NCBI RefSeq assembly: GCF_004210375.1
Contig: NC_134833.1
Coordinates: forward strand, 149,722,127 to 149,786,126
Direction of reading: 5' to 3'
Source: Tachypleus tridentatus
Lineage: Eukaryota; Arthropoda; Merostomata; Xiphosura; Limulidae
Length of the DNA: 64,000 bases
Position numbers and translations under genes: made by a program. The notes under the pieces are model-generated. The model ran no database searches. It was not told where the DNA came from and worked only from the letters and a program-made list of their open reading frames with translations. Below are positions 4,021 through 37,900 of the stretch, one piece after another. How positions within the stretch are numbered: position 1 is the first letter of the stretch; each line of letters begins with the position of its first letter.

Positions 4021-5584
4021 AATGAAAGTAACAATTATAATTTATATATTTGTAACTTACACAAACCTCGAGTGTCACCATGAATTTCAATGAAAGTAAC
4101 AATTATAATTTATATATTTGTAACTTACACAAACCTCGAGTGTCGCCATGACTTTCAATGAAAGTAACAATTATAATTTATATATTTGTAACTTACACAA
4201 ACCTCGAGTGTCACCATGACTTTCAATGAAAGTAACAATTATAATTTATATATTTGTAACTTACACAAACCTCGAGTGTCACCATGACTTTCAATGAAAG
4301 TAACAATTATAATTTATATATTTGTAACTTACACAAATCTCGAGTGTCACCATGACTTTCAATGAAAGTAACAATTATAATTTATATATTTGTAACTTAC
4401 ACAAACCTCGAGTGTCACCATGACTTTCAATGAAAGTAACAATTATAATTTATATATTTGTAACTTACACAAACCTCGAGTGTCGCCATGACTTTCAATG
4501 AAAGTAACAATTATAATTTATATATTTGTAACTTACACAAACCTCGAGTGTCACCATGACTTTCAATGAAAGTAACAATTATAATTTATATATTTGTAAC
4601 TTACACAAATCTCGAGTGTCACCATGACTTTCAATGAAAGTAACAATTATAATTTATATATTTGTAACTTACACAAACCTTGAGTGTCACCATGACTTTC
4701 AATGAAAGTAACAATTATAATTTATATATTTGTAACTTACACAAACCTTGAGTGTCACCATGACTTTCAATGAAAGTAACAATTATAATTTATATATTTG
4801 TAACTTACAAAAACCTCGAGTGTCGCCATGACTTTCAATGAAAGTAACAATTATAATTTATATACTTGTAACTTACACAAACCTTGAGTGTCGCCATGAC
4901 TTTCAATGAAAGTAACAATTATAATTTATATATTTGTAACTTACACAAACCTTGAGTGTCGCCATGACTTTCAATGAAAGTAACAATTATAATTTATATA
5001 TTTGTAACTTACACAAACCTTGAGTGTCGCCATGACTTTCAATGAAAGTAACAATTATAATTTATATATTTGTAACTTACACAAACCTTGAGTGTCACCA
5101 TGACTTTCAATGAAAGTAACAATTATAATTTATATATTTGTAACTTACACAAACCTTGAGTGTCACCATGACTTTCAATGAAAGTAACAATTATAATTTA
5201 TATATTTGTAACTTACACAAACCTTGAGTGTCACCATGACTTTCAATGAAAGTAACAATTATAATTTATATATTTGTAACTTACACAAACCTTGAGTGTC
5301 GCCATGACTTTCAATGAAAGTAACAATTATAATTTATATATTTGTAACTTACACAAACCTTGAGTGTCACCATGACTTTCAATGAAAGTAACAATTATAA
5401 TTTATATATTTGTAACTTACACAAACCTTGAGTGTCACCATGACTTTCAATGAAAGTAACAATTATAATTTATATATTTGTAACTTACACAAACCTTGAG
5501 TGTCACCATGACTTTCAATGAAAGTAACAATTATAATTTATATATTTGTAACTTACACAAACCTTGAGTATCGCCATGACTTTC
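4021..5584 (-). repeat. 68-bp minisatellite, 23 copies, each carrying a 5' splice site
   Basis: There are exactly 23 contiguous 68-bp units (1564 bp) with few substitutions. Read on the minus strand, each unit holds the exon end (ATTGAAAGTCATGG to CTCRAG) followed by GTTTGTGTAAGTTAC and about 30 bp of AT-rich intron. The unit next to the exon body supplies the inferred real donor at 5562, and the other 22 donors recur every 68 bp down to 4066. Variants are CTCGAG versus CTTGAG on the plus strand and CACC versus CGCC. CTCGAG variants predominate at the low-coordinate (intron-distal) end and CTTGAG near the exon. Confidence 0.93.
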
Positions 5585-5659
5585 AATGCCTAGTACTTCT
5601 TCTACACTATGGGACTGGAGACTTTTCGTAAATTCATCCCACTCAGAAAAACCTGGAGT
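5563..5659 (-). CDS. Internal coding exon of an unidentified minus-strand gene
   Basis: On the minus strand an acceptor TGTCTTTAAATTAG precedes 97 nt that read TPGFSEWDEFTKSLQ, then SHSVEEVLGIESHGDTQ plus one base, and end at CTCAAG|GTTTGTGTAAG. It enters in phase 0 and leaves in phase 1, which fits the next exon at 3402 exactly (the split codon is GAT, Asp). The other frames have stops. The peptide is acidic and hydrophilic with no membrane segment. I do not recognise the family. The last 25 nt and the donor are the seed of the 68-bp array immediately downstream. Confidence 0.7.
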
Positions 5660-6112
5660 CTAATTTAAAGACAGAACAAAACTGAAACTTGTAACAGGAT
5701 TCTACAATTAAGACATTTCACAGAAAGTTTAAAAAATTATGTTTATTAGAAGAAAAAAAAAGTTAAAAGGACATTTTGATGTAATATATGAAATACTAAA
5801 CAATGGTTAATAAAACAGATTAGTCACCACCTATTTCATTCAAAAACAATTATATTTTAATATCATAATGAATTTGGTTTTAAAAACCTCTGAATAATAA
5901 CTAAAGTTAAAACACACACATTAGTTTTACACTCATTCCAGTCTTTTAAACTCCACTTAATTGTCTTTGGCAGTTTGTTAACGACACTCTTCGCTTACGT
6001 CGATGCACTCTCTGTCAGTTACTGCATATAAGCATCTCATTCAGATAATGTTATCACTTTTTCAAGATTAATACCATCCCAGTCTCTAACACCAGCTCTT
6101 AGTGGGGAGGAT

Positions 6113-6388
6113 TTGGTTTTGTTTTGAACTTTGTTGCCAAAGCTACATGAGGGCTATCTGCACTAGCCATTCCTAATTTAGTAGTGTAAGACTAGAGGGA
6201 AGGCAGCTAGTCATCACCATCCACTGACAACTCTTGGGCTATTCATTTACCAATGAATAGTGTGATTGACTGCACATTATAATGCCCCCACAGCCGAAAA
6301 GGTGAGCACGTTTGGGATAACGGGGATTTGAACCCATTATCTTCAGTCCATGAGTCGAGTGCCGTAACCACATGATCATGCCGGGCCC
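6113..6388 (-). mobile_element. SINE family A (tRNA-Thr-like), diverged copy
   Basis: The tRNA-like head is at the right end (ATGCCGGGCCC) and the tail at the left. Body landmarks such as CTAATTTAGTAGTGTAAGAC and CTCTTGGGCTATT are present. Many substitutions indicate an old insertion. Confidence 0.8.
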
Positions 6389-6926
6389 AGAGGGTAAGGA
6401 AGGGTGGGAGATTGTGAAAGGAAGTTCTTATTTAAGCATCAAGAGTCTCACAAACAGTGAAACTTTTCAGTGTTACTGGAGTGGAGAACTGGGAACCAAC
6501 AAAAGAACCAAAATGTTCTTTCTCTTTCCTTCCTCCAAATTAGCACAAAAATGAGTGAAGTTTTTGCAATGGCTTTAGTACAACAGAAAAGTAGTTTAAG
6601 AGCATGTAGAAACGGGCTATCATTATTCACAGTACGTATGGATGGGCCTACATAAAAAATAGTCACCTCATTCATGCTATTACTCTGTGATGCTAAAGTT
6701 GATTTATAGCCTTATTTGAGAACCTAACTACATTATCAAGCATTTCACAGTTTCAAAAAAACAGTAATGTTATTCTGTTCTTCTACCACATGTATCCTTA
6801 CAGGGAAATAATTAAAAGAAAAACTATTACTTGGCAGTGTGTTTAGTTTATGAATGTGTTATTTCCATGTTTCATAAAAAACAGTTTCATTTCTAGACAC
6901 TGGATAACAACACAAACCGTTCTTAC

Positions 6927-6982
6927 ATAACAACCATTTGTAACTTTTCATTGCACAAACATGATATCTGCCAAAACAATTT
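6927..6982 (-). CDS. Exon-like 56-nt segment upstream of the minus-strand gene
   Basis: A long polypyrimidine tract ending CTATTTTTACAG is followed by 56 nt and a good donor GTTGTTAT|GTAAGAAC. One frame reads KLFWQISCLCNEKLQMVV. Splicing directly to the exon at 5659 would not keep the TPGFSEW frame, so an intervening exon would be needed or this is a chance pair of sites. Confidence 0.2.
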
Positions 6983-7942
6983 CTGTAAAAATAGAGAAAG
7001 AAAAAAAGAATAATCCAAATTAATATTAAAGGTATCGAAGAGTCCAAATATTTACACAACATACAAATCTGTATACATATTATTGAAATTTGAGTTTTAA
7101 AATATAAGTTTCTTAATAATCAAACATTATATAGCAATCTATATGACAGCTGTGTGGATATGCATGGCATTATACTTCATGGTTTGGGATGCATCTGACA
7201 TGTTCCCTATTATTTGGCATGACCCTAATATGTGGTGGAGTCAATTATATGTGCATGGAGTAAAGTTATTAGGCATGGATTCTGTAACTATCCCCTTAAT
7301 ATCAATCCAGCTCTCCAAGGTATTTGTACCATGCTGGAGAAATCATTCCAGCTTCACTGGCTTCTAATGTAATTCAAAATTAGAGGAATGATTATCATAT
7401 TAACAATATATATTACAATTGAATTATAGAAATAAAACAAATGCTCACTTATCTTCCTATTTAAAATAAATTGTTAAAAAAAAAAAGAAGAGAAATGAGT
7501 TATAAAATATGTTTTTGCAATAATTAAGTATGATGTAAGGATACCAATGTCAAACAAGTACAAAACAAGGTTAGGATAAACACATAAAAGTAAGTACAGA
7601 GTCAATCTTACAAGATCATGGTTATTAGCTACTGTAAGATTGTATAGAATTGTCCAGTTTAAATGCTTTTATTCAAACCTGAATTCAAGCAACTGACAGG
7701 AATTCAACATTCAACTGTAAATATATATTATTCTTGGAATGATTTGGCTGGTAACATAGGAAATGTTTTATATGGTTCTGTGTTTCCATGTTTCTATATT
7801 TTTATCACTGCTATTACTAACTCAGATATTTTTTTTAAATATTTTTTATTACTTGTTAATTTTACATCAGTGGTGGAAATGTTTTTGAAACTCTGATAAA
7901 AACATGGTTTGCAAAGTTTTCTATGAAATGTAAAATTTTACT

Positions 7943-8367: not shown

Positions 8368-8587
8368 ATAATAGTAAGGGGTGGTTATTGCTGGGAATTG
8401 CAAGGGACTCCCTTGATGGGCCAAAAAAATGATACAAAGTTACAATATCATCAAATTACATTATTTCAAAAACATACAATATATTTTATCAAGAAGGTTT
8501 CAACAGATATAAATGTGTTTCTATGAAACTACTTTTTTAATATAAAAATTAAGAAAATATGAAAAGCTGAAAGTAATACCTTTATAA

Positions 8588-10960: not shown

Positions 10961-10965
10961 AAAAA

Positions 10966-14230: not shown

Positions 14231-14231
14231 T

Positions 14232-14514: not shown

Positions 14515-15205
14515 TATTTAAAACCACTTTATGATATATAGAGACATTAAAACAATGTTATTAAACATTAACAAATTTCCTTGTCCAGTTGTCATTGGTT
14601 ACCAACCTTCCTCAAAAAGTGTTCAGTACCAATACATCTCTTTAAAACTTGTTTAGCCCCCCAGTGGCTCAGCGGTATGTCTGCGGACTTACACGCTAAA
14701 ATCCGGGTTTCGATACCCGTGGTGGGCAGAGCACAGATAGCCCATTGTGTAGCTTTGTGCTTAATTCAAAACAACAACAACAAAACTTATTTATTCAAAT
14801 TCTCTCATATTTTTACCCATTTTTTTCCATCAGTAAGTTCTTGTCTCAAGTACGTATTACATTTCTCTGTTTTATTCAACCAGTTTGAAATATTTCACAC
14901 ACTATACTCTCGTTACCTTTAAACAAACCCAAGTATTTATCTTATTGTCTTTAAATATCTTTTCATCTACTTGATATGTAATTAGTAATCCCAGTATCAT
15001 GATTTTCTATCTTTATCTGGAATACTTTGTTAATTATCATTTCAATAATTACTTTCTTAGTTATGTTTCCCTTCTACCCTCATCTGACACATTTTACGAT
15101 CCATAATGGCTTCAAAGGTTCTCATCTCCAAGTCTCACAGTGATCTATTCCTTTTACAATAACTTTAAAACAATATCGAACTTCCCACATCTTTGATATA
15201 TCCAG
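14515..15205 (+). repeat. Inverted duplication segment C, left arm
   Basis: It matches the reverse complement of 58430-59235 with high identity by eye (for example ATATGTAATTAGTAATCCCA against TGGGATTACTAATTACATAT). Differences are a family B SINE in this arm and a direct duplication in the other. Confidence 0.9.
14655..14781 (+). mobile_element. SINE family B, full length, with matching empty site in the other arm
   Basis: Head AGCCCCCCAGTGGCTCAGCG, box B GGTTTCGATACC, then GCACAGATAGCCC, TGTAGCTTTGTGC and a CAA-rich tail. Flanking 11-bp duplications are AAAACTTGTTT (14644-14654) and AAAACTTATTT (14782-14792). The inverted copy at 59095-59105 has a single uninterrupted site. Confidence 0.9.
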
Positions 15206-17587
15206 TATATATGTGGGTATCTTCTATATAATGTTTACTGTTACATCCGTTCTTCCATCAACCAAACATAATATGGTGTATGTCGGTCTAAGCCCAATAA
15301 ACCCATTATATTTTTATATTAATCACTTTATTTTTATTATTCTATTCCATAACCCATGGCATAACTTATGAAGCTGTTAAACCAGCTTAACCATTTTGAC
15401 ATAGCTTATATATGTTAGCCACAATTCAAAAGACTGTAACTGTTTGTTACATATCTCGGTATGTGTTTGCTTTGTTCTTAATATTAAAATAATATTCCAA
15501 ACACTTCTATTATCTCCCATTTATATTTGTTGAGCTTTCCAAAACATGAGCTCTCATTTATTTTCAATACATTTTTCAAGTACTTTTATTTGGTCGATTA
15601 GTTTTACTTTAGCACAAGTCTCAACACTGGGCTAGGTGTGTTGTGCTCACCACGAGTATCACAAACCAACTTATTTGTTGAAAACTTTCAGTCACCGTGA
15701 TGACGTCAGCTACATTTGGAACTGAAGATATCAGTAAACCAGCAACGTGTGTTTAGATGTGTTATATATACATGATATTCATGGTTATCTTAGAACTGAA
15801 GTTAATAGTAAACCAACAACGTGTGTTTAAATGTGTTTACATATACATGGTATTCATAGTTACCTTAGAACTGAAGTTAATAGCATAGCAACAACGTGTG
15901 TTTATATGTGTTTATATACACATGATAATCGTGGTTACCTTTGAACTGAAGTTAATAGTAAAGCAACAATGTATATTTAGATGTGTTTACATATACGTCG
16001 TATTCATGGTTACCTTAGAACGGAAATTAATAGTAAACTAACACCGTGTGTTTAGATGTGTTTTATGCATATACATGATATTCATGGTTACGTTGGAACT
16101 GAGGCTTACAATAAACTAATAACGTGTGTTTAGATGTGTTATATATACATGATATTCATGGTTATCTTACAACTGAGGTTTATGCATGTTTCCACATGTA
16201 CAATTAACAAATGTTTTTCTCGAAACATGGGTGTTTAAATAACAATGATCGAGGAACGTTTAATATATTCAATAATGAAAGTGTTGCTAATAATAATTTT
16301 TTTTATTTTAAATTACTGTGTTTATTGATGTCCACATCATAAATGTGATTAACAGGTTTTATTGTTTTAACAAAACTTGAGTAATACAAGTGTGCCTGAC
16401 ATATCTGAAAGTTGTGACAAGAGATATAATTATCTTAGGAGACGGGACGAACTCACATTGAAATGTAGGAAATGATGGAGGACGAAATTAAAAAACAAAT
16501 TCCTCCAAGTGTATTTTCAGGAAACCAAACAAAACTTCTTGAAAATAATGGATAAGGTAACATGACAATCAATGTAAAATTGGGCAACAAATCTTATGTT
16601 TCTCATGAGGCCTGACCCATATCATTCATGCAGTACGACTTAACCCACTTTACTTATGGAGTGCAATCTGGCTCACTTCTTTATTATGTAAACATGTCCT
16701 TGAGTTTCATTTTATCAAGTGTTAAAGTAAAATGAAAGTTAGTCCCTAGAACAAATCGTATCGTTTGTCCAAGTTTGAAGAGAACAAAGTTTCTATCTGT
16801 GAACAGAAATTCTATGTAAAGTTAATTACCGTTATTACTAAAATTCACATATCTTCAAAATTTGTCTGACCAATTTTCTATTACCAATGTTATTAAAATG
16901 TCATTTATCTTCCATTTTTTCACTCACCAGTTCTCTACTACTAATGTTATTAAAATGTCATATATCTTCCATTTCTTTTCTCACCAGTTAAGTTCTCTGT
17001 ATCCACGTATCATCGTATTTTGTTTGTTTTAGTCCTGAAGAAACGTTAGCTCATAATTTTGCTGATGTTTATTAATAACTTTTGACACACCAGTGATGCA
17101 TGTCTTATTCAACGCCTGTCAAATGTGTTTTGATATGATTTAAAATAATAAATAGTGAAAAGTAAATTCAAATGAGCATGACAGCATGCAGTGAACACCT
17201 GCAGGTGTAATGTAATAATATTCAACGTTCACACGAAATCACTGATAAATGAACTAGTGTATCAAATGAGTCACAGAAACTATGATTTAGTTATCAAGCG
17301 TAACTCTTTCATTACCTCGATTACAGATAAACTTCCCCTAGTGCTAGGCCTATTTGTAGATTCACACACACACACACAGAACTATAATAAAGTATTTTAA
17401 TACTGAATGACTTATGTAATGCTGGTAAACTTTGTGAAGTTTTAAAGAATGCCTTTCCTAAATGCATTGTAAAGTGCTTTGGATAGTTTAAATAATACGT
17501 TCAAGTTATTACACCACATACTTTATGACTCTCGTATCCATCACAAGTTACGTCATGTGGTTCTATCTAATAATAACACATCCGGTG
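15206..17587. other. Left-arm-only spacer between segments C and B
   Basis: Apart from the 75-bp repeat at 15719-16180 and a possible SINE B fragment near 15613-15668, this is plain AT-rich DNA without a match in the right arm. The short stretch 16258-16302 resembles the 45-bp insert at 58611-58656 in reverse. Confidence 0.5.
15719..16180. repeat. About 75-bp diverged tandem repeat, six copies
   Basis: Each unit holds GAACTGAAGTTAATAGTAAA, CAACGTGTGTTTAGATGTG and a TACATGATATTCATGGTTAC-type end. Copies differ from each other at many sites, unlike the younger arrays. Confidence 0.8.
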
Positions 17588-17706
17588 TTCCCAGCTGGTT
17601 CATCGTTAAGCTTACGGATTTACAACACTAAAATCAGGGGTTCGATTCCTTCTCGGTAGACTCAGTAAACAGCGTGATGTTGGTTTGTTAGAAGAAAACA
17701 CACACC
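17588..17706 (+). mobile_element. SINE family C
   Basis: A tRNA-like head (box A-like CAGCTGGTTCATCGTTAAG and box B GGGGTTCGATTCC) is followed by a short tail containing CGTGATGTTGG and an A/C-rich end. Confidence 0.65.
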
Positions 17707-17953
17707 CCCATCCAGTAAATGTTAAAATTAGAATATGCCATGGCATTCTTGTGCCTGATTGGTTCTAATATCTCACATATTTAATTATGTGTAATATAAG
17801 TTAAATTCTCAATGATGTAGATGTGTGCGACATTCAGCACAAACTAATCAAATACTAAATGATATCGTTTACCCAGATTTTGCCCTCTGGTGAGTAAGCG
17901 GTAAATTACAATGTTAAATCTGTGAAGACGAGAAATCCAGTTGAAGTAAAAAT

Positions 17954-18099
17954 GTATTATCAAGACGGCTGGTACGGATGTTATCACTTTAATTAAAAAC
18001 TTCAAGTGAAATAAAGTACAGAACAATGAAGATCAAAACGTTGTTCTGTACTTGATTTTAATTAAAGTTTTAATACCCATACCAGCCGTATTGAGAATA
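17954..18099. mobile_element. Fold-back element with about 60-bp arms
   Basis: CGGCTGGTACGGATGTTA on the left pairs with TAATACCCATACCAGCCG on the right. The arms continue inward through TTTAATTAAA and GTACAGAACAA / TTGTTCTGTAC around a short loop. It is non-coding. Confidence 0.65.
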
Positions 18100-18172
18100 C
18101 AATGTTAAATCCCATATTCTCTATGGTAGGTTTCTCACCACAAACTAAGTAACAATAAGAGCGTCTGAATCT

Positions 18173-18384
18173 TTTGTTTGTTTGTTTGGGAATTTCGCAC
18201 AAAGCTACTCGAGGGCTATCTGTGCTAGCCGTCCCTAATTTAGCAGTGTAAGACTAGAGGGAAGGCAGCTAGTCATCACCACCGACCGCCAACTCTTGGG
18301 CTACTCTTTTACCAACGAATAATGGGATTGACCGTCACATTATAACGCCTTCACGGCTGAAAGGGCGAGCATATTTAGTGAGAT
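18173..18384 (-). mobile_element. SINE family A, head truncated; left-arm copy of a shared insertion
   Basis: The tail and body are intact, but the tRNA head stops after GGGCGAGCATATTTAG and runs into GTGGAACGAGTTATGTC. The reversed right-arm copy (56984-57190) is cut at the same place, so the insertion predates the duplication. Confidence 0.85.
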
Positions 18385-19422
18385 GTGGAACGAGTTATGT
18401 CATACTAAGTGTAGGTTGTAACAAACCTTACTGAATAAACTAATTTAATTAATGTCGTTGCATAGACTGGACTTAGCATTATTTCTACCAAGTAATCCGA
18501 AAGAAACCAAACAACGATAGAACACGCTAAAACAATATCTTTGGTTATATATAAATAGTAAGGTTATAAATTATTATTTTTTTTCATATATTTGTAAACT
18601 TGAAACAAAACTAAACATTATTTTAGTTCAGATTCAATATTTTCACAAGAAACATTCCAAGTCCTTTGGTTAAAGTATTTGTAAACGGTTTTGTATTTCA
18701 AAGTAGTTATTTTCTTCAGTTTTAATTTGTTAACATTTTGAACTTTCCAGCTTGTCTTTCGCATTCGATAACTATTCGATGACAAACAGTTATCCCATGT
18801 TAATCAAATGGTGAACGTAATTAGATCTTTAAAAGTTTATTTTAGTTTATCTATGTGATATCGTGTGCTGCCTTCATAAGTTCTACTATATCAAGTTAAA
18901 GAACGAACAGAAAAGTTCATTATACCTTTTTGTTAGCAGGCAGATGATATAAAGCTACTGGTTGGTAGATGATGAAACCTATTAGATAAAACTGGCTTCA
19001 TACATCATAAAAGTGGCTCCACCTGACTATATCATTCACCAAAACGATAAAAATCATTGTTGATTTAACAACAATAAACTGGTAATTTATAAACCTTGTT
19101 GCATTGCACAACAATGATTTAATAACTTTATAAAATATGATACACGATACAACAAGAACTTCATTATTTGTAAGAAGTGTTACAACATCCAACCTTCTTC
19201 TGGTAACATAAAACATGTTATATCATCCAACAACAATCACGTAATTTATTTTTAAAAAGTTTATTCAAATATTTCTATCAGTTTAGAAAATTAATTTACA
19301 TTTTCGTCGGGTACAACGGAAAAGATAATATAATAATTCTTTTATATTGGTCTAAATGCTGAAAGTGATTTTATAATAAACAGATGTGATCAAAATTTTT
19401 TGAGGATAAGGAGATATAATAA

Positions 19423-19553
19423 CGTCAGAGTAACATTGTGACTGTGTTTGTTTATAGCAGAGTCACATCGGGTTATCTGTTGAGCCCGCCTAGGGAATCG
19501 AACCCTAATTTTAGCGTTTTAAATCAATAGACTTACCGCAGTACTAGCGGGGA
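19423..19553 (-). mobile_element. SINE family C, left-arm copy with single tail unit
   Basis: Reverse orientation: GGGAATCGAACCC is the box B complement and GTACTAGCGGGGAC the head end. The tail region (TCACATCGGGTTATCTG) is present once, whereas its right-arm counterpart has three 60-bp copies. Confidence 0.75.
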
Positions 19554-21548
19554 CGTTATGACTGAAACATTCGAAGATAAAATACAGTGTGGTATGGTTG
19601 AAAACTGTATTTCTTTTATTATACAACATTATCACGTAAAGACCGTTGTTGTTATAATAGAAATATAATTTTTAAAATCTATTTCTCTTTAGGAAAAGGA
19701 ATGCCAGGCTTATGTAGACAGATCTACAGAAAACATGGTATGAAATAGGACGTCGCTTAGTCCATGGGTAAATCGTTTCAGATGTTGTTAATCTACTCAC
19801 ATCGTGTGACCCTGAGTGTGAGAATATAGTTTTTATACATTGATATTCATCATAGTCCTGAGTTGGAGAATAAATTTAACATTTTGTTACATATTTTAAC
19901 AATGAGTTTGAAAATAGAAGTTTTTTAAATCTCAACATTCATGTAGCCCTAAATTTCAGTATGTAGGTTTCGATATGAAAACAACCAGGTAGCCCTGAGT
20001 TTTAGAATTCATGTTTTAATATATTGATTTGCAGAGTTGTCTTAGGCTTAAGAATACAGCAATTAATATCTTGAAGCGCAGCGTGGCCCTGGCTTTGAGA
20101 ATTCAAATTTTAATATTTCCACACTTTAGTATACTTGGCTCCCAGAAAGCTGAGGCAGAAACTAATAACCCGGATGTGAGTGATTAAGACTCCTACTGGT
20201 GGCTTTTAGCCTCGTTTCTGGAAAATAGTAGTTTACATTAATTACATAACAATAAGTTCTGTTATACTTTAAAAGAAAAACAATTTAATATGTTATATAC
20301 TTTATCAAAATTTTGTAGATGTAGTTAACAATCGTATTTTCTAAGCGCCATTAAAGTTTATGAATTTCATTCATGGTCACGTGAGAAAATGAACATTAAA
20401 AAAGTTAACTTAAATAAACTGTTATAATTATTTAGTTTATTTAAAGTTTGCATATTTGAGAATTTGACGTAAATTTAGGACAAAGACTAGCTGTATATAA
20501 CTGTTCCTAGTAGATAGAAAAAAGGAAAGATGGAAATCCACAAATACAGCAGCACGTAGACTATTTTTATATAGTCGAAAAGTGAGACTTGACTATTACT
20601 CTTATAGCAAGCTCTTTGGCTCTAAAGTTTAGACATGTTTCTGTGACAACAAGTCATGAAATATGGATCTAGAGATTCACAGCTGAAGCACACTAAAGAA
20701 CAGACCACATCTATCCTCCTAACTAAGCTAGTTTTGAAAAAATAACAACGTATTATCAACGTACAGTCACAAACTTTTAACAATACAATCAAACAAGCTA
20801 GCTGTCTTTAAAACATTTCCGCTCAGTGTTAGGTAAATAAACTTTATCTTACAAAATGTTCATTTCGTGAAACAGGTTTATATTTCAAATGCTGCAGCAG
20901 GTGTCTTACTCTGGATCAAACTACTAAAATGTTTCTTCATTTCAGTATATTTTTACCAATCAAATTATTCTACGATTTATCTGAGCCCTAATGGGCCAAA
21001 ATGTAACATAACACTCATCATCATCAACAAGTTTCAAGAGGTTTGAGCCGGGAGTGGGAAGGGGTGACGTTAACAGAGCTGAGGTAAATGTGTTGTTGAA
21101 CGTTGTGAATATAAATATATGTGTTTGGACTGTGAATACATAAACATAAAGTTTCTGTTATAAAACCTCGTTTCGCACCTTTGGACCATGAGTGAATTAT
21201 AAGGGTGACAGTCAGATCCAACTATTCGTTCATACAGGAGTAGCTCAAGAGTTGCCTTCTCTGTAGTCAGTCAGCTCAGAGTTAAGGACTAGTATGAGAA
21301 AATATCAGTTTGTGTAGCTTCACTTGACAGTTTAAAAACAAACAAACAAATATCAGAAGCAATGAAATCTCAATATTCACTCAGTTTGAATCTGACACCA
21401 GGAGTGATTTCTCACAGTAATATTATCTACTCAGGAGATCAGCCAAGTGAGAAAAGAACTAATGAACATTCATGTTGGCTTTTATGAACCACGCCGTCAA
21501 AACTCACGACGGGAACCGATTGGTTTTACTCCTTATAAACTTGTTTTT

Positions 21549-22079
21549 GTATTCAACGTTTTGGAAAACAAATTAATTATACGCACAACTTAGCTAAACG
21601 TATGTTTACGCTGTCCATGACGTAAGTATGATCGAGAAATCTAAACATAAAGAACTTCGTGTTCTCTCCTGTTCAGTCTGTTTAAACAGTCGTTTCTTTG
21701 CTGAATAATCAGTTACTATTTTTGTTGTTGCTATTTCTCAGTTGGAATATGAAATGGACTATTGCTTAGAGGAGATAAGTCCAATAACATAACTCAAATA
21801 TCAAAATACAGTGTTTATAGTAATTTGGTATAAACTTATTTACCACATATTGAATTCAGTTAGTGATGAGAAGATGGTTTAAAAATGTGGTATTAATTAT
21901 TCAAATGTAGCCGCAAAAATCATTGAAGAGAGCCAACATTATGTAACATTTTGACGTCATTCTTTATTGTAATAGATGATTTTACTTAAAAAATGAATAT
22001 TTTATTCTGCTTTTAATATTAATTTAAAGTCAGCGTCATCCTAACACTGTGTACTTAAATTTATTAAAAAGATATATTA
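21549..22079. other. Left-arm-only spacer before the 34-bp array
   Basis: No feature. The right arm passes directly from segment B to the decayed repeat units, so this stretch was inserted here or lost there. Confidence 0.5.
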
Positions 22080-24822
22080 CAGATGAAGATGGATAGGGTA
22101 GTAAAAATGGATTAGATGAAGGTGGAGAGTATAATAAATTATAGTGTATATGAAGATGGACAGGGTAGTAAAGGATGGTTTAGATGAGGATGGACAGTGT
22201 AGCAAAGGATGGTTCATATGGAGATGGACAGGGTAGTAAAAGATGGTTTATATGGAGATGGACAGAGTAGTAAAGGATGGTTTAGATGAGGATGGGCAGG
22301 GTAGTAAAAATTGATTAGATAAAGGTGGACATTGTAATAAATTATAGTTTATATGGAGATGGACAGTGTAATAAATTATAGTTTATATGGAGCTGGACAG
22401 GGTAGTAAAGGATGGTTTAAATGAGGATAGACAGGATAGTAAAGGATGATTTAGATGGAGATGGACAGGGTAGTAAAGGATGGTTTAGATGAGGATAGTA
22501 AAGGATGGTTTAGATGGAAATGGACATGGTAGTAAAGGATGGTTTAGATGAGGATGTACAAGGTAGTAAAGGATGGTTTAGATGAGGATAGACAGGGTAG
22601 TAAAGGATGGTTTATATGGAGATGGACAGAGTAGTAAAGGATGGTTTAGATGAGGATGGGCAGGGTAGTAAAAATTGATTAGATAAAGGTGGACATTGTA
22701 ATAAATTATAGTTTATATGGAGATGGACAGGGTAGTAAAGGATGGTTTAAATGAGGATAGACAGGATAGTAAAGGATGATTTAGATGGAGATGGACAGGG
22801 TAGTAAAGGATGGTTTAGATGAGGATAGTAAAGGATGGTTTAGATGGAAATGGACATGGTAGTAAAGGATGGTTTAGATGAGGATGTACAAGGTAGTAAA
22901 GGATGGTTTAGATGAGATATAGAAACAAGGGTAATAAGATGGTTTATATGAGATGGACAGAGTAGTAAGATGGTTTAGATGAGATGAGCAGGAAGTAGTA
23001 AAATTTATTAGATAAAAGGTGTGGACATTATAATAAATTATAGTTTATATGGAGATGAACAGTGTAATAAATTATAGTTTATATGGAGATGGACAGGGTA
23101 GTAAAGGATGGTTTAAATGAGGATAGACAGGATAGTAAAGGATGATTTAGATGGAGATGTACAGGGTAGTAAAGGATGGTTTAGATGAGGATGTACAGGG
23201 TAGTAAAGGATGGTTTAGATGAGGATAGTAAAGGATGGTTTAGATGGAGATGGACAGAGTAGTAAAGGATGGTTTAGATGAGGATGGGCAGGGTAGTAAA
23301 ATTTGATTAGATAAAGGTGGACATTGTAATAAATTATAGTTTATATGGAGAATGGACAGTATAATAAAATATAGTTTATATGGAGACTGGACAGGAAGTA
23401 GTAAGAGATAGTTTAAATGAGATAGAACAGAGATAATAAGAGATGATTTAGATAGAGATAGACAGGAGTAGTAAGAATGGTTTAGATGAGATAATAAAAA
23501 GATGGTTTAAATGAGGGAGGTACAGAGTAATAAGAGATAGTTTAGATAAGATAATAAGATGGTTTAGATGAAATAGACATAGTAGTAAGATGATAGTTTA
23601 GATGAGATGCACAAGAAGTAGTAAGAATGGTTTAGATGAGAGATAAACAGGGTAATAAGAATGGTTTATATGAGAATGGACAGAGTAGTAAGAATGGATT
23701 TAAATGAGAGATGCAGCAGGTAGTAAAAAAAATCAAATAAAGTGAACATTATAATAAAATTATAGTTTTATATAGAGATGGACAGTATAATAAAATATAG
23801 ATTTATATAAGAGATGGACAGGGTAGTAAAAGGATAGTTTAAATAAGGATGAACAAGAGATAGTAAGAATGAATTTAGATAAGAATGGACAGGGGTAGTA
23901 AGAATGGATTTAGATGAGAGATAGCAAGAAAAGAGATGGTTTAGATGAAATAGACATAGTAGTAAGAGATGGTTTAGATGAGAGATGTACAAGGTAGTAA
24001 GAATATGGTTTAGATGAGAGATAAACAGGGTAGTAAGAGATGGTTTATATAGAGATGGACAGAGTAGTAAGAATGGTTTAGATGAGATGGGCAGAGGTAG
24101 TAAAATGAATTAGAAATAAAGGTGAGACATTATAATAAATTATAGTTTATATAGAGATGAACAGTGTAATAAATATAATTTATATAGAGATGAACAGGAA
24201 GTAATAAGATGGTTTAAATAAAGATAAACAAGAGATAGTAAGAATGATTTAGATAGAGATGAACACAAGTAGTAAGATAGTTTAAAATGAAGAGATGTAC
24301 AGGAAGGTAATAAGAGATGGTTTTAAATAAAGAGATGTACAGGAGTAATAAGATGATTTTAGAATAAAGAATAATAAAGAATGGTTTAGATAGAGAATGA
24401 CATAGTAGTAAGGATAGTTTAAAATGAGATGTACAAAGTAGTAAGAATGGTTTAGATAGAGATAATAAGAATAGTTTAGATAGAGATGAACATAGTAGTA
24501 AGAATGGTTTAGATGAGATGTACAAAGTAATAAAGAATGGTTTAGATGAGATAAACAAGGTAGTAAGGATGGTTTATATGGAGATGGACAGGGTAGTAAA
24601 GGATGGTTTGGATGAGGATGGACAGGGTAGTAAAGGATGGTTTATATGGCGATGGACAGGATAGTAAAGGATGGTTTAGATGAGGATGGGCAGAGTAGTA
24701 AAGGATGGATTATATGGAGATGGACAGGGTAGTAAAGGATGGTTTGGATGAGGATGGACAGGGTAGTAAAGGATGGTTTATATGACGATGGACAGGGTAG
24801 TAAAGGATGGACAGGGTAGTAT
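22080..24822. repeat. 34-bp minisatellite (GGATGGTTTAGATGAGGATG type), about 80 copies
   Basis: The unit continues GACAGGGTAGTAAA. Two subtypes alternate (TTTAGATGAGGATG and TTTATATGGAGATG), plus occasional TAATAAATTATAG units. Units are clean to about 22915 and again from about 24560, but noisy between. The right arm has only about two decayed units in the equivalent place (53640-53700). Confidence 0.9.
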
Positions 24823-25291
24823 CATTAGAGTTAGGGTAACGGTACAGAAACTAGTATTAGTATGGTTAACTATTTCCAGTAGTGTTAATACGACGTTTTA
24901 TGCTGGAGTTAACTTCAGCATGGCTGATTTCAAGATGCGTGTGGATGACGTCAGTAGAGCCAGTGTTGTAAACGTAAATATTGTGAATTGGTCGGTTGTT
25001 GCCAAGCCTGAAACTACAGAATGCGCGGTCTGTGCTAGGTTCACCATAGACATTGAAACCTCATTTTTAACGTCGTAAAACTCTAGAATTAATACTTGGT
25101 CACTAATGGGGGGGGGGACTATTTTATAAAATATATAAAAAATACACTCAATGAATCCTTTGTCGTAATATGTTACACTAAAACAAATTCATTGTTAATT
25201 GTACCGTAAAACATTCAACGAAATTAACAATAGCATTGCAAACTATATTCATAATACACAAAAATACTGTAAAAGTACATTATCATAAATA

Positions 25292-26575
25292 ACTACAGTG
25301 AGTGTACAGTGAAACAAACTTGTTAACTACAGTGAGTGTACAGTGAAACAAACTTGTTAACTACAGTGAGTGTACAGTGAAACAAACTTGTTAACTACAG
25401 TGAGTGTACAGTGAAACAAACTTATTAACTACAGTGAGTGTACAGTGAAACAAACTTGTTAACTACAGTAGGTGTACAGTAAAACAAACTTGTTAACTAC
25501 AGTGAGTGTACAGTGAAACAAACTTGTTAACTACAGTGAGTGTACAGTGAAAAAACTTGTTAACTACAGTGAGTGTACAGTGAAACAAACTTGTTAACTA
25601 CAGTGAGTGTACAGTGAAACAAACTTGTTAACTACAGTGAGTGTACAGTGAAACAAACTTGTTAACTACAGTGAGTGTACAGTGAAACAAACTTGTTAAC
25701 TACAGTGAGTGTACAGTGAAACAAACTTGTTAACTACAGTGAGTGTACAGTGAAACAAACTTGTTAACTACAGTGAGTGTACAGTGAAACAAACTTGTTA
25801 ACTACAGTGAGTGTACAGTGAAACAAACTTGTTAACTACAGTGAGTGTACAGTGAAACAAACTTGTTAACTACAGTGAGTGTACAGTAAAACAAACTTGT
25901 TAACTACAGTGAGTGTACAGTGAAACAAACTTGTTAACTACAGTGAGTGTACAGTGAAACAAACTTGTTAACTACAGTGAGTGTACAGTGAAACAAACTT
26001 GTTAACTACAGTAGGTGTACAGTAAAACAAACTTGTTAACTACAGTGAGTGTACAGTGAAACAAACTTGTTAACTACAGTGAGTGTACAGTGAAACAAAC
26101 TTATTAACTACAGTGAGTGTACAGTGAAACAAACTTGTTAACTACAGTGAGTGTACAGTGAAACAAACTTGTTAACTACAGTAGGTGTACAGTAAAACAA
26201 ACTTATTAACTACAGTGAGTGTACAGTGAAACAAACTTGTTAACTACAGTGAGTGTACAGTGAAACAAACTTGTTAACTACAGTAGGTGTACAGTAAAAC
26301 AAACTTGTTAACTACAGTGAGTGTACAGTGAAACAAACTTGTTAACTACAGTGAGTGTACAGTAAAACAAACTTATTAACTACAGTGAGTGCACAGTGAA
26401 ACAAACTTGTTAACTACAGTGAGTGTACAGTGAAACAAACTTGTTAACTACAGTGAGTGTACAGTGAAACAAACTTGTTAACTACAGTAGGTGTACAGTA
26501 AAACAAACTTATTAACTACAGTAAGTTTACAGTAAAACAAACTTATCAACTACAGTAAGTTTACAGTGAAATATA
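25292..26575. repeat. 34-bp minisatellite (ACTACAGTGAGTGTACAGTG type), about 38 copies
   Basis: The unit continues AAACAAACTTGTTA and is highly uniform, with subtypes CAGTAGGTGT and TTATTAACT. Its reverse complement, also with a 34-bp period, forms the array at 51990-53605 in the right arm. Each unit contains GTGAGT on the plus strand. Confidence 0.93.
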
Positions 26576-26671
26576 TTCATTATTATTATTTACAGTACTG
26601 TGTTATTTATACATCCATATAGCACAAATTCGTACATTTCAGAATATCTTTTTCTCATGTAATGTAATAAT

Positions 26672-28221
26672 AGTATTAATTATAGTTAATTAAGTATCTA
26701 GGTTACCAAGCTGTAATAGATTCTTCTGTAAATAGTATTAATTATAGTTAATTAAGTATCTAGGTTACCAAGCTGTAATAGATTCTTCTGTAAATAGTAT
26801 TAATTATAGTTAATTAAGTATCTAGGTTACCAAGCTGTAATAGATTCTTCTGTAAATAGTATTAATTATAGTTAATTAAGTATCTAGGTTACCAAGCTGT
26901 AATAGTTTCTTCTGTAAATAGTATTAATTATAGTTAATTAAGTATCTAGGTTACCAAGCTGAAATAGATTCTTCTGTAAATAGAATTAATTATAGTTAAT
27001 TAAGTATCTAGGTTATCAAGCTGTAATAGATTATTCTGTAAATAGAATTAATTATAGTTAATTAAGTATCTAGGTTATCAAGCTGTAATAGATTCTTCTG
27101 TAAATAGTATTAATTATAGTTAATTAAGTATCTAGGTTACCAAGCTGAAATAGATTCTTCTGTAAATAGTATTAATTATAGTTAATTAAGTATCTAGGTT
27201 ACCAAGCTGTAATAGATTTTTCTGTAAATAGTATTAATTATAGTTAATTAAGTATCTGGGTTACCAAACTGTAATAGATTCTTCTGTAAATAGTATTAAT
27301 TATAGTTAATTAAGTATCTAGGTTACCAAGCTGAAATAGATTCTTCTGTAAATAGTATTAATTATAGTTAATTAAGTATCTAGGTTACCAAGCTGTAATA
27401 GATTCTTCAGTAAATAGTATTAATTATAGTTAATTAAGTATCTAGGTTACCAAGCTGTAATAGATTTTTCTGTAAATAGTATTAATTATAGTTAATTAAG
27501 TATCTAGGTTACCAAGCTGTAATAGATTCTTCAGTAAATAGTATTAATTATAGTTAATTAAGTATCTAGGTTACCAAGCTGTAATAGATTCTTCTGTAAA
27601 TAGTATTAATTATAGTTAATTAAGTATCTAGGTTATCAAGCTGTAATAGATTCTTCTGTAAATAGTATTAATTATAGTTAATTAAGTATCTAGGTTACCA
27701 AGCTGTAATAGATTTTTCTGTAAATAGTATTAATTATAGTTAATTAAGTATCTAGGTTATCAAGCTGTAATAGATTCTTCTGTAAATAGTATTAATTATA
27801 GTTAATTAAGTATCTAGGTTACCAAGCTGTAATAGATTTTTCTGTAAATAGTATTAATTATAGTTAATTAAGTATCTAGGTTACCAAGCTGTAATAGATT
27901 CTTCAGTAAATAGTATTAATTATAGTTAATTAAGTATCTAGGTTACCAAGCTGTAATAGATTTTTCTGTAAATAGTATTAATTATAGTTAATTAAGTATC
28001 TAGGTTACCAAGCTGTAATAGATTCTTCAGTAAATAGTATTAATTATAGTTAATTAAGTATCTAGGTTACCAAGCTGTAATAGATTCTTCTATAAATAGT
28101 ATTAATTATAGTTAATTAAGTATCTAGGTTACCAAGCTGAAATAGATTCTTCTGTAAATAGTATTAATTATAGTTAATTAAGTATCTAGGTTACCAAGCT
28201 GTAATAGATTCTTCTGTAAAT
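26672..28221. repeat. 62-bp minisatellite, 25 copies
   Basis: Exactly 25 units with no length variation. The unit begins AGTATTAATTATAGTTAATT and ends AGATTCTTCTGTAAAT. Substitution variants (TTCAG, TTTTTCTG, GGTTATC) are partly arranged as alternating pairs. It ends about 490 bp before transporter exon 1 and is absent from the right arm. Confidence 0.94.
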
Positions 28222-28690
28222 CGCTGAACAATACCATGAACATTTTATTTCAACAAGTAATATTACAAGTACTACACCAACTAACTCTACTGATCATATT
28301 GTTTTTAACATGCACGTGAAACCTTTGTTCGTAGGTTGTCCAATGCTGTTTGAAAGTGCCCTTCTGAATGCTGTTTGATAACATAGAAAAATAATTCACT
28401 GAAACGTTTTAATGACTGTTAGAATATGTTGTTCAGTAGATGAAGACGTCATGGTTTTGTCAAATATATATTTCGTCTCTGTGCGATGTTCTAAAATTAC
28501 ATAACTTGAATGGTTGTACACTGACATTACGTTTCAAGGGCACATCACCTCAATTTAATCACGTGTTTATCCCGTTCAACTATAATCAAATCAGTTTTAA
28601 TTTCATATGCAAGTTTAGTCTTTGATTGGTCGTGATTGAATATGACGTCGTGCTATCAAAGTTACAAAACCACCTATCCTGTCTTTGTAG
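28222..28690. other. Upstream flank of transporter exon 1
   Basis: The presumed 5' region or upstream intron of the transporter. A CCTATCCTGTCTTTGTAG acceptor-like sequence ends at 28690. No TATA box or initiator stands out. A 61-codon frame at 28440 has no support. Confidence 0.4.
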
Positions 28691-28708
28691 ATTAGAATAA
28701 TCTGTAAA

Positions 28709-28910
28709 ATGCTGGGTAAACCACTTCTACACGGTCCAATCAGGTGGGAATGGATCGTTGCGATCTCCTGCTTCTGGATTAATATGTGTCTTTTTGGCGC
28801 GTTCCGTTCTTCTGGACTATTGTATGTTGCTCTGGTGGACACCTATCATTGTACCCACGCCTACGCTGCATGGTCCACTGCACTATCTTCTGCCATAATG
28901 AATTTATCTG
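28709..28910 (+). CDS. Transporter coding exon 1 (start codon, TM1 and start of TM2)
   Basis: This exon encodes residues 1-67 and the first base of Gly68. ATG has A at -3, and an in-frame TAG ends at 28690, so this is the first usable Met. The sequence CCTATCCTGTCTTTGTAG ending at 28690 looks like a 3' splice site, so the exon may start at 28691 and an upstream non-coding exon may exist. The donor is TCTG|GTGAGTGA at 28911. TM1 is about residues 15-32 and is followed by R33, and A53-S67 begins TM2. The usual family entry motif [DE]G[GS][WF][GA]W is replaced by GPIRWEW (residues 9-15). Confidence 0.88.
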
Positions 28911-31900
28911 GTGAGTGATGATAAAAGAAATTATAACTGTTCTATCTTTCTTACCTCACCTTCTCTCGGCTCACTCAACCAAACTCGTAAAATTATTAAC
29001 TTATTTAGTAAATTCCAACTAACGTCTGACTACCATTCTCATAAACTTACATACTGGAAGAAGTCTTCAAATATATAACTTTAGAAAATGAGTTTCGAGA
29101 TCTGTGGTGCATATTTTGTAGTTTTGAGCGTTACTAATAACAAAGAAATAAATTTCTTACATAAACGTTTGAGTTCAATTTAACTTACGCCACGCGCTGT
29201 GCTTCTCTCATCGGAGAGATGATTGTCCAACTTGCATGTTGAGTACCTTAACGGAAAAATCACATTTGGTTGGTCGTCAGTTCGATTACTCCCCATTTTA
29301 GAAAGTCATCTCACATGAGATAAGCACTCATTTTGATTGTTCTATATTTCAAAAGGTCTTATCCAATAAGATAAGTGCTATCTTCTCTTAGTTCTGGTAT
29401 TGTGCGATAGGCTTCGTCGGCACTAAATATAGCAGATATAGTAAGAATGACGAACTGTTCTTATTTACTTTTAGTCGTAAGTTTCTAGACTTGTAAGATA
29501 TAACCCGTATTCAATACACGTACTACCACTTGATACGAGCAGTTATCTACAATCACACGTACACGAAGTAAAGCCGAATTAACTTTCTGTCCAAATGTGT
29601 TTCATCACAACTCATGACGTGCAAGCAGAACATCCTGTGTCTCATTTGTCGACAGAATAAACGTTCTACTTCCTCATCTATTTTACAACCTTTGTAACGT
29701 GATTTCCCGCCAAAGTTAAGTAACTGAATATATTACAGTATTTTGTATCATTCAATAATAAATAATAGTCAGTAAACATCAATCAGAAAGTTAGGCGAGT
29801 TTTTAAAATAACTAACATCGTTAGCTTTTTCAGAAACACAGTTTATGTTCTTAGCAACATATGCCTTCAAGGTGCTTTATCTTAAAGTAAGTTATCTGAT
29901 TTATTTTAAGACAGTAATGGTGTATTTTGTTTTCACCAATATCCATCTACCCAGAGATCATAACTGTGTATCATAAACTGTGTCCCTTCGTCAAGTGCGC
30001 TAAAAAGGATTAAATAAAGAAAGCTAAAATAATTAAGCAGAAAGCCAGCGCAGCTTAGTGTTTAGCTTACTCAAACTGTAAGTCCGAGAGTTCATGGTTC
30101 GCGACCCGCTTCCATAAAATTGCGATTAGCACTTTGAGACTATGGCTGAGCTGTAAGAATAGCTGTCAAATCCGACTATTCAGTCAAGCATGGAAAAGTC
30201 AACAGTTAGCTGTGACTGTTGTTGACTAGTTGTCTTCCATTTTGTTTATTAGCTCAAGTTTAAGAGTGGCTACACGTTTAAAGACCCAGGTGTGACTTGG
30301 AACAAAACTTGTAAAACAAATACATAGGTTACAGGAGCTTAGCAATCTAAATTTTAACAAAAGAAGGAAGAAAACAGAGCAATATTATGAATTATAACTT
30401 GAGATATATAATGAATATTTTGAACGTTAAATCAAATCTTCCTTTGATTAACACTTTCTGTTACAATGTTCAATATTTCTAGTTTTCTTCAAGGTTAATT
30501 CTTTTATCATTATACTTACATTATAGATATTGTTTTACATTGATAAGTTAATACATGAATTTAGAACTAATATAGGCCTTCTAGACTCGCAGAACCACAC
30601 GAGATATTTTTGGGATTGTGGTCGAAACTATCGTTAGTAGCGAGGGTAACCAACTGATGAAGCAATGTATTATAATATTTATAAAAAAAAAACATCAAAG
30701 CATATTGTTAGCTCTGTTACTGGATTGATATTTAGTCTTAGTATATATAGATAGGTTTCTTTGTTCGAAATTTAATACATGTTTCTATGAAATTTGTTCA
30801 ATTTTCTTAGAATTAAATTACAGCAGATAAATTATTCTAGGTCATATGACCTGCACTGGTTTAAAATTTTTCCATGGACTTTTTCTTAGAAAATCACATC
30901 GCATGTTTGCACAGATATTTGCTGGACCTTTATTTAATAATATATTTTTTAGTGTTTAATTATATTCAAGAATTCTGGAATATTATTAGTTATAATATAT
31001 TTTGGTTCAGCTAATATTACAGTTCTCTTCCCAAAATCTCCAATACCGTATGTTGAGTTTCATTTGTATGTTCCACCACGGTTCAACTTTCAGTTTTTTT
31101 ATTTCTTACAGTTCCTTTATGTTCCATTAAACGATATTGTAAACTACGTTCAGTTTATCCAATATTAATCTCTCCACAGTCACATTCAACTGTATAGAGT
31201 CCTGTTTACCTGAATTAACTCTGTATTATCTTTTGTAATACCTAAAATTTCTTTTATGTTAGTAATCGTTTTAAACATAGATTAAAATATTTATTGTTTA
31301 GAAACTTTAAATAAATAATTAATAAAACCTGAGATATGGGGCAAAATTAAATCTTTCTTTAAATTTTTCATATCTTGGTTTAATACAAAACTTTAAACTA
31401 TTTAATTAAAGAAAAATATAAATATGTTTGTTTCTGAATTTTGAGTCGTCCCTAATTTAGTAGTGTAAGAGTGGAGGGAAGACAGCTAGTCATCACCACC
31501 CACCGCCAGTTGAACCAGTTTAACATTTGTAGCTACCTCAACAACCGATAAATCAAACCAAAACAGCCCTCCCAAAGAGACGGCCAATCAGTATCAGACA
31601 CAATGTCTATCCAAAACTGATGTGATACGTGAGAAGGAAAATAATTCTGCAATCCACAAAATATCCTCCTCAAAGAAAGCCTCTGAAATAAAGTAAAATC
31701 CAAACCATAACTGTGTGTAAAATATAAAACAAGTGTAGAAAAACACGCAGCTGAAAGTAATCAGACGTAACTAAAGATATCTCACCTGAGGATAAGGCCG
31801 TATAAAACTGACGGAAATGTTTTGTAATAAATCCTGTAGGTAGCGCTCTGTTGTTGGATGAAACCAATTCAACAGCGACCGATTCTCTGAGAAAACGAAG

Positions 31901-34900: not shown

Positions 34901-37900
34901 CAAACTGTTACGATGTTAACTAGGACATCATTTATAGTAACGAACAAACTGTTACATTGTTAACTAGGACATCATTTATAGTAACGAACAAACTGTTACG
35001 ATGTTAACTAGGACATCATTTATAGTAACGAACAAACTGTTACGATGTTAACTAGGACATCATTTATAGTAACGAACAAACTGTTACGATGTTAACTAGG
35101 ACATCATTTATAGTAACGAACAAACTATTACAGTGTCAATTAAGACTTTATTTATAGTGAGAATTTGTTTGTTTGTTTGTTTTGGAATTTCGCACAAAGC
35201 TACTCGAGGGCTATCTCTGCTAGCCATCCCTAATTTAGCAGTGTAAGACTAGAGGGATGGCAGCTAGTCATCACCACCCACCGCCAACTCTTGGGCTACT
35301 CTTTTACCAACGAAAAGTGAGATTGACCGTCACATTATAACGCTCCCACGGCTGGGAGGGCGAGCATGTTTGGCGCGACTCGGGCGCGAACCCGCGACCC
35401 TCAGATTACGAAGCGCACGCCTTAACGCGCTAGGCCATGCCAGGCCCTTATAGTGAGAAACAAACTGTTACGGTGTCAGTCAGGACATTATTTATAGTAA
35501 CAAACAAACTTTTACGGCAGTTGGGACATAATTTATATTAACAAACAAATCGTTACGGTGTCAGCTGGGACAATATTTATAGTAACAAACTGTTACCGTG
35601 TCAGTCAAGACATAATTTACATTAACAAACAAATCGTTATGGTGTCACTCAGGACATTATTTATAGTAACAAACCAACTGTTACGGTGTCAACTGGAGTA
35701 ACTGGGTAATATTTAAGTTCTAACCAGTTTTCTTTATGCTGGAACACATCATAATGAGGACAAGACATTTTAACGTTACATTATTTATTAGGTTAAACCC
35801 ACATACCATTAGTTAATATTACCTCTAAGAACAGCAGGGCAAGACGCGACAAGCGAAATAAATACATGAAAGTTCGACTGTAGTTTAAACTCGACGTTTA
35901 ACATTCATACCTTTATATATCGGTTTTAAGTTGGAAAAAAAATCCACAATTTTTTATAATCTCTTCCCACCAGGGGGAGTTCAAGAAACGTAGTACATTC
36001 ATACATGTCTTGCAAGGTAAAGCTAGATTTCGTATTGTCAGCGTTAGCCAAATTTTATACAAATATTACGAATGTCAGAATAAGCGTACCTTTAAAGCTC
36101 CTATATACTTAACATTCTGACCATCTATAACCTTGAATAGCTGTTGGTGGCCTGAGAACGAGGGTATAGCTAGAACTGAGTTGACAACTGTTCAATGTTA
36201 AATTTTATGATGGTGTAAGTTACAAGAAAACACGTAGTTTGTTTTATTTTTAATTTTGCACAGAACTACACGAAGGCTGTCTGCACCAGCCGTCCCTAAT
36301 TTAGAAGCGATACACTATACAGGGAAGGGAACCTGTCTTTTTATGGTTTTTGTTTTTTTTTAATTTCGCGCAAAGCTACACGAGGGCTACCTGTATTAGC
36401 CATCCCTAATTTAGCAGTGAAAGACTAGAGGGAAGACAGCAAGCTAGTCATCACCACCCACCGCCATTTCTTGGGCTACTATTTTACCAACGAATAGTGG
36501 GATTGACCGTCACATTATAACGCCCACACGGCTGAAAGGGCAAGCATGTTTGGTGCGACGGGAGTTCAAAACCGCGACCCTCAGATTACGAGTCGAACGC
36601 CTTAACTCACCTAGCCATGCTGTGTCGGAAGGGAACCGATTGACATCAGCTACTGCCCACTCTTGAGATAATCTTTTAACAACAAATTATTGGATTGAGA
36701 ATGACGTTATAAATCCCCCTATGGGCAAAAGGGAATCGAATCCGCAACCCACTGATTGCGAGTCGAGCGTCCTAACCACTAGGTGGTGCACACGGAGAAA
36801 ACTGTTTGTTTTGTAAAACTTTTTTTTTAAATTATTATTGACTATTTATTAATACCTTTTAGGAGGTCTACGAACGTAGCCTAAGACTTTCATAGACTCT
36901 TGGAAAAGGCGTATGTTGAATCATCGAGTAGAATAAGTTAATACTTATCTGAAGTTGTTTGTCATTGTACCTCGTTATATTTACTGCTTATTGTGCATTT
37001 TACTTATTAAAGTAATACACTTGAATTGTTCAAATTAAAGCTTTATTTGTACATAATACGTTTAATTGTATTTTGTCGAAACCCAATTACATCAAATATC
37101 TTTAAAATATTTAATTATTTTTTGTTCTTCTCTATAGGAGAAGGAAATAACTAAAGTAATATTTTGGCCAAACACGTGCGATATAAATCATTTAAAATAA
37201 TGTTTTCTATCTTTCTTTTGTCTCTCATAAGTCAGTAACCCAACAGATTTGTTGTTCATTATAAGAACTCATCAATCGTGATGGACGATGAGAAATAAAA
37301 CATTCTGTAAAAACACTATTTACATGTTCAGTTTAATACTTTTAAAAAATGAAATGATATTTTGTTTGTTCTTAGGTCCACTGGTTGGTTTATTGACTCA
37401 TCTCCTCACCATTCGTGTTATCATTTTAATTGGTTCAGTGGTGTCCTCTAGTGCCGTTACTCTTTGTTATTTTGCAACTGATATTAAACACGTAATTCTT
37501 CTTCTTGGAGGTTTACAAGGTGAGACATATCTGTTGCTACAAGTTTTACTAGATGAAACACGTCTATTAGTTGAAGATTTACAAGGTGAGACATATCTGT
37601 TGCTACAAGGTTTACTAGATGAAACACATCTATTAGTTGAAGATTTACAAGGTGAGACATCTCCTGCACGGAGGTTTATAAGGTAAGATACAACTGCTAC
37701 TTGGAGGTTTACTAGATGAAACATATCTCTTTATTGAAGGTTTGCAAAGTGAGATACAACTGTTACTTGGAGATTTACAAGGTGAGACACAACTGTTACT
37801 TGGAGGTTTATAATGCGAGACATTAATTCATTAATTAATATGTTTATTAATTTTAAATGTTAGCAATTAACCCTCTCTTTGCTCTTATTTTCCACAACTC

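Follow-up and report, generated by a model that had tools for sequence, protein, structure and literature searches.

Minisatellites whose repeat unit spans an exon–intron border occur at two splice donors, one of them the donor of a putative exon, in a 64,000-nucleotide stretch of the genome of the horseshoe crab Tachypleus tridentatus, and comparable arrays recur at donors and acceptors of other genes in this species. The stretch, hereafter the window, is C9:149722127-149786126 (contig NC_134833.1) within a 2.17-Gb, 205-contig genome. We consider it very probable that these arrays are minisatellites produced by tandem duplication in an array-rich genome, that they straddle exon–intron borders by chance, and that they persist where the exon-proximal splice site works.

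The first array of the window (array 1) occupies 4021..5588, with its sense on the minus strand. Tandem Repeats Finder (TRF), with which all arrays were called, gives it a period of 68 bp, 23.1 copies and 98% matches. The unit-by-unit listing shows that each 68-bp unit joins 26 nt from the end of a putative exon (finishing CTCAAG) to the first 42 nt of the following intron; in the first copy an open frame ends and a GT donor follows, and the later copies extend into the intron. GGT at the putative junction is kept in 21 of the 23 units, the exceptions being units 15 and 19. The putative coding exon of this gene (gene 1; TPGFSEWDEFTKSLQSHSVEEVLGIESHGDTQ; 5563..5659, minus strand) is placed by its open frame, and its acceptor position is approximate. 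Two candidate donors lie in the unit, AAG/GTTTGT (score 4.9) and, 6 nt downstream, TGT/GTAAGT (score 5.0), and either may be the one that serves. The putative last exon of the gene, likewise an open frame (3221..3402, minus strand), reads ...STGEEKSPTVGVKVEDT...DILQPM followed by a stop; its frame follows TACTTTTCAG in all three segmental copies of the gene, copy B differing by one residue.

Array 2 lies on the plus strand at 37504..37822 (TRF: period 33, 9.7 copies, 68% matches). According to the unit listing, its 33-bp unit consists of 16 nt of exon end, CTTGGAGGTTTACAAG, standing before GTGAGA, and 17 nt of intron start. Here too the first copy holds the end of an open frame followed by a GT donor, later copies extend into the intron, and alternate units have diverged. 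Seven donor-like GT sites (rough matrix score of at least 4) are spread across the array, and the junction GT is lost in about 4 of 10 units as judged by eye. The exon concerned, known from sequence and translation (37376..37519, plus strand), ends ...HVILLLGGLQ at the donor AAG/GTGAGA. It is followed on the same strand by an exon beginning GLGLGLVTNLTPVII... (37927..39129, ends from sequence), which by itself matches Pfam MFS_1 at 8.6e-18, and it is preceded by a putative first coding exon (28709..28910, plus strand, counted from the first ATG, donor CTG/GTGAGT, from translation and donor context). The two shorter exons gave no Pfam match when searched singly, the joined peptide of all three matches MFS_1 at 8.3e-13, and the identity of the gene as an MFS_1 transporter is secure. 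The sequence-only reading had proposed that both exon-touching arrays of the window begin at a donor, include the exon end in their unit and grow into the intron; TRF and the unit listings bear this out, with the reservations already given for array 1.

Searched with its exon, array 2 matches at full length once genome-wide. Weak DNA matches on C11, which might have suggested deep conservation, fall in a 34-bp x 52 array with no exon noticed (L091), and were taken as chance.

Copy number differs between near-identical copies of array 1. A 32-residue peptide of gene 1, searched in the genome, matches only three copies on C9, namely that of the window and those at C9:149646.4k and C9:147259.6k; gene 1 peptides found no match above the cut-off in Pfam, where GST_N_5 came closest at E 0.13, and none in the PDB at E 5. 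The three copies hold 23, 20 and 21 units, and stretches of about 2.7 kb (flank and array) align at 98.5-99.1%. Several diagnostic variant units occur in a common order in all three, and a few units differ. In copy B a T run in the exon is shorter by one T. The exonic copy of the window array has GAT, which differs synonymously from the GAC found in its other units and in the exonic copies of B and C.

Exon-end-plus-donor arrays recur in two unrelated genes among 80 exon loci sampled across the genome. In a gene of the SNF (neurotransmitter-transporter) family, locus L036, a 41-bp x 9 array carries ten CAG/GT sites after ...LGIDSQ. Its paralogue at L035, 89.6% identical over 1509 bp, has the donor once (CAG/GTGAGC) and no array, a presence/absence pair that would fit recent birth of the array by tandem duplication. 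In an arginine kinase gene (L046), exon end and donor are repeated with a 56-bp unit in 5.1 copies; the outer copies decay, and six donor-like GT sites are present, some of them off the junction. The arginine kinase exons are close to PDB 1bg0 (the search used exons from two paralogues joined together), which we take to be Limulus arginine kinase. The opposite border is represented at L009 (array at 2149-2543), where the acceptor and the first 36 bp of its exon are repeated six times in a 66-bp unit, and at L012, a near-copy of L009 with an acceptor array, 309 kb away on the same contig. Splice-border arrays are thus not confined to donors, because the array of L009 and L012 repeats an acceptor and an exon start.

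Two side observations concern acceptors. In most L009 units an acceptor is followed by 28 nt of exon and then by a cryptic CAG/GTATTC donor, and two units read CAAGTATTC; the 66-bp unit could in principle serve as a micro-exon. At a myosin exon (L068), a 21-bp x 12 array (1251-1502) ends 5 nt before the acceptor AG, so that any branch point probably lies inside the array. This array was counted as adjacent, not spanning.

Whether arrays sit at splice borders more often than chance predicts was considered in the window and in the sample, coverage figures referring throughout to TRF arrays of period 10 or more. Arrays cover 13,539 bp of the window (21.2%). Nine splice sites were inferred in it by manual placement, 4 of them donors and 5 acceptors; the last of the acceptors, put at 41968, should probably stand some 35 nt later, and no array is close to either place. 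Two of the nine, both donors, are covered by arrays, and random placement predicts 1.9 (P for two or more = 0.60). The window by itself therefore holds no excess of arrays at splice sites.

The sample comprises exon hits to conserved domains of three families: 116 rows and 30 loci for SNF, 22 and 20 for ATP-gua_Ptrans, and 86 and 30 for Myosin_head; of the 224 rows, the 80 with loci entered the analysis. The loci measure about 3.2 kb each and some overlap, giving 259,986 bases. Eleven of the 80 were dropped as near-identical (L012, L016, L030, L034, L040, L043, L048, L050, L052, L056 and L086), and terminal arginine-kinase exons and a doubtful donor call at L041 were also dropped from the donors. 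Both sites of the second exons of L035 and L036 were added by hand, as was the second-exon acceptor of L009; the last owes its inclusion to an array already noticed there, an upward bias in the acceptor count. Most splice sites are automatic picks made with a rough matrix, some of them misplaced by tens of bases.

In this sample, arrays are scarcer at splice borders than chance predicts, the opposite of enrichment. Arrays cover 8.8% of the 80 loci. Coverage at the 3' end of the matched exon stretch is 1-3% within the surrounding 200 bp, against about 7-12% at 200-1500 bp beyond; on the 5' side it is 0-1% near the stretch and about 6-18% farther out. Donors are spanned by arrays in 2 of 66 cases (L036, L046), where 3000 random placements within these loci predict 6.5 (P(sim<=obs) = 0.021); for acceptors the count is 1 of 72 (L009) vs 7.0 predicted (P = 0.0017), or 0 of 71 once L009 is left out. 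Setting the TRF score cut-off at 50, 80 or 150 makes no difference to which sites are covered. A second-copy scan by local alignment found 2/66 donors, 1/72 acceptors and 45/690 intronic controls at score 24; at score 20 the figures are 2/66, 2/72 (L041 entering at 21) and 52/690. The enrichment at donors that had been proposed from the window thus did not appear in the three gene families, where arrays overlap donors no more often than chance predicts. Nor did donor specificity hold up: apart from the acceptor array of L009 and L012, no significant difference separates the rates at donors and acceptors (2/66 vs 1/72, Fisher P = 0.61; without L009, 2/66 vs 0/71, P = 0.23), and pooling the sample with the window, which was chosen for the pattern, gives 4/70 donors vs 1/77 acceptors (P = 0.19).

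These observations suggest the following course of events. Minisatellites would be born by tandem duplication, through slippage or unequal exchange, very frequently in this genome, and some of the units would straddle an exon–intron border by chance. The exon-proximal copy would keep the original exon end and splice site, and the extra copies would be intronic and mostly skipped in splicing; acceptor-side arrays would come from the same process, the exon-proximal copy there being the last one. A 4-bp direct repeat, CATT, present in exon and intron, bounds the ancestral 68-bp unit of array 1 and fits the expectation for slippage, which we infer to be the mechanism; at the L009 array no microhomology was seen by eye. 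Protein continuity across the arrays (LVT/AVD in arginine kinase, DSQ/F in the SNF gene, GLQ/GLGLG in the MFS gene) implies that the exon-proximal donor is probably the one used. The depletion at borders matches the prediction of purifying selection, its likely cause.

Several points weigh against this account. Use of the first donor is read from sequence and not from RNA. The CATT microhomology is a single case and may be due to chance. As three conserved families were sampled, the depletion may exceed that of average genes, and L035 could have lost an array instead of never having had one. Genome-wide, tandem triples of AGGTAAGT give 1340 + at least 2000 matches vs 657 + 756 for the motif read backwards, an excess that could mean some surplus of donor sequence in arrays. 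Among the matches listed, the donor-triple rows on C1 fall in about 20 arrays and the control rows in two long ones. We did not take the counts as donor enrichment because they are per match and dominated by long arrays, and because the second figure, from the reverse count, may be a lower bound; the motif count is not decisive either way.

The same architecture has been described in other lineages. In amphioxus, so-called mirages are reported from Adh3 and from the globins BflGb6 and BflGb9, with similar but imperfect repeats in PGBD5; their units span the 5' or 3' border of an intron, carry AG/GT in many copies and vary in copy number, and each unit measures 10-72 bp in Adh3 and some 150-160 bp in the globins (PMC3087553, PMC3902484). 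The horseshoe crab arrays resemble them in most of these respects. The units of array 1 (exon putative), array 2, L036, L046 and L009 span the exon–intron boundary; splice signals are retained (7 GT in array 2, 10 CAG/GT in L036, 6 GT in L046, GGT in 21 of 23 units of array 1); and both borders are affected in one genome, the acceptor at L009/L012 and the donor at L036/L046. Copy number is variable in mirages, and here the 23, 20 and 21 units of array 1 are those of segmental copies, not alleles. The mirages are reported from cephalochordates and the present arrays are from a chelicerate, although lineage says where such arrays occur and does not define their structure. Undisturbed regular splicing also counts among the marks of mirages; in amphioxus both splicing and somatic instability have been studied, whereas the horseshoe crab arrays are known from sequence alone.

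A second parallel is the variable number tandem repeat (VNTR) in intron 18 of human ABCA7, made of 25-bp units and including the donor of exon 18, the first two bases of the unit being the donor GT (PMC5954066). There, canonical splicing is described alongside retention of one VNTR unit, longer VNTRs go with more skipping of exon 19, and in 90% of BA10 cases the alternative transcripts, taken together, outweigh the canonical one (PMC5954066), so that splice-border arrays can disturb splicing. As in ABCA7, the horseshoe crab donor arrays adjoin an exon and include its donor. The ABCA7 repeat, however, starts at the donor GT, whereas the horseshoe crab units include 11-36 nt of exon, and it is for ABCA7 that effects on splicing are known. 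Splice-border minisatellites are accordingly a known type of structure, of which the horseshoe crab arrays are new cases in another lineage. The earlier suggestion of a recognisable type of structure stands insofar as exon-end-plus-donor arrays recur in L036 and L046, and falls as a claim to a novel class, since mirages and the ABCA7 VNTR had already been described. The titles and abstract openings listed in literature searches yielded no splice-border minisatellites for a chelicerate, most subscription papers lying outside that coverage, and a term search of the main text of two horseshoe crab genome papers (PMC7011531, PMC7210998) found neither "tandem repeat" nor "minisatellite".

Among other explanations, the arrays might be functional, their multiple donors yielding graded isoforms. 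Array 2 invites this idea: an open frame extends from 37282 to 37683, the 33-bp unit is in frame, and strong donors (10.7) stand at 37520, 37586 and 37652, spaced 66 nt (+66 and +132 in the open frame), so that splicing from 37586 or 37652 would lengthen the transporter by 22 or 44 residues. In human ABCA7, the second-unit donor is used in some transcripts (PMC5954066). The extra residues would, however, land inside a single MFS_1 match, the loss of the junction GT in about 4 of 10 units indicates donors that are decaying rather than kept, and the 68-, 56- and 41-bp units of the other donor arrays would cause a frameshift on splicing from the next donor. The limit on first-donor use given above applies to later donors as well, and we regard the explanation as improbable.

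Quite improbable, too, is the idea that donor-site minisatellites form a distinct class of element, in which AGGT seeds amplification and donors, unlike acceptors, are hot spots. It can point to the two window cases and to two of the three sampled ones (near-copy L012 left out), all at donors, and to the genome-wide excess of AGGTAAGT triples over the backward motif. Against it, donors are covered less than intronic positions, acceptor arrays occur, none of the three Fisher comparisons separates donors from acceptors, and the motif counts are per match, not per array, with real single donors raising the motif background.

We rate still lower, as very improbable, a third explanation, intron gain in progress through tandem duplication of AGGT-bearing sequence. 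Potato RdRp is reportedly a case of intron gain by tandem genomic duplication, and Hellsten and others are said to have observed cases of this type. The Rogers model (as cited in PMC3087553) shares with the present arrays the tandem duplication of AGGT-bearing sequence, and a published model derives introns from mirages (PMC3087553). The units here carry AGGT at the junction, and most 66-bp units of L009, with an acceptor and the cryptic donor 28 nt later, are potential micro-exons. In the Rogers model, though, duplication makes a new intron, whereas here existing introns lengthen and, with no cross-species comparison, none was seen to be gained. The link to intron gain drawn by the sequence-only reading is not supported: in the inferred structure the exon ends are old ones and each array sits within the intron that comes next, donor-side duplication inside an existing intron adds none unless a copy turns exon, and no acceptor was noticed in the units of arrays 1 and 2 by eye, without a dedicated test. 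That misassembly inflated the copy numbers is hardly credible: tandem arrays are prone to assembly error, and the counts come from the assembly and not from reads, but the three copies of array 1 keep the order of their diagnostic variant units yet differ in a few, and the array-bearing and empty paralogues at L036 and L035 differ cleanly.

The window has further repeats of its own. A large inverted duplication joins 14782-31024 and 50002-59105, its unique parts being 95-97% identical; the arms differ by about 3.6 kb, which includes a 2.7-kb array at 22081-24810, and one 34-bp array has 37.7 copies in one arm vs 26.7 in the other (TRF). A family of interspersed repeats of about 250-290 bp (e.g., 6118-6390, 36351-36620, 44031-44318 and 47484-47769; copies 79-86% identical) resembles a tRNA-derived short interspersed nuclear element.

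Of the sampled splice sites, 3 of 138 carry mirage arrays, or 2 of 137 without the hand-added site. If that rate held, a few per cent of the splice sites of the genome would carry such arrays, giving thousands of multi-donor or multi-acceptor exons, some of which (as with the 33-bp array of the MFS gene) may yield length-graded isoforms; we think this extrapolation unlikely, but if true it would supply a large ready-made test of spliceosome choice among identical tandem splice sites. The sample speaks against donors as hot spots, and avoidance of borders is expected if most such arrays harm splicing. The occurrence of splice-border arrays in unrelated horseshoe crab genes suggests that they arise wherever minisatellites are born often. 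An exon with as many as 23 near-identical donors behind it offers a natural experiment on the choice among equal splice sites, for which paralogues with and without an array provide ready controls.

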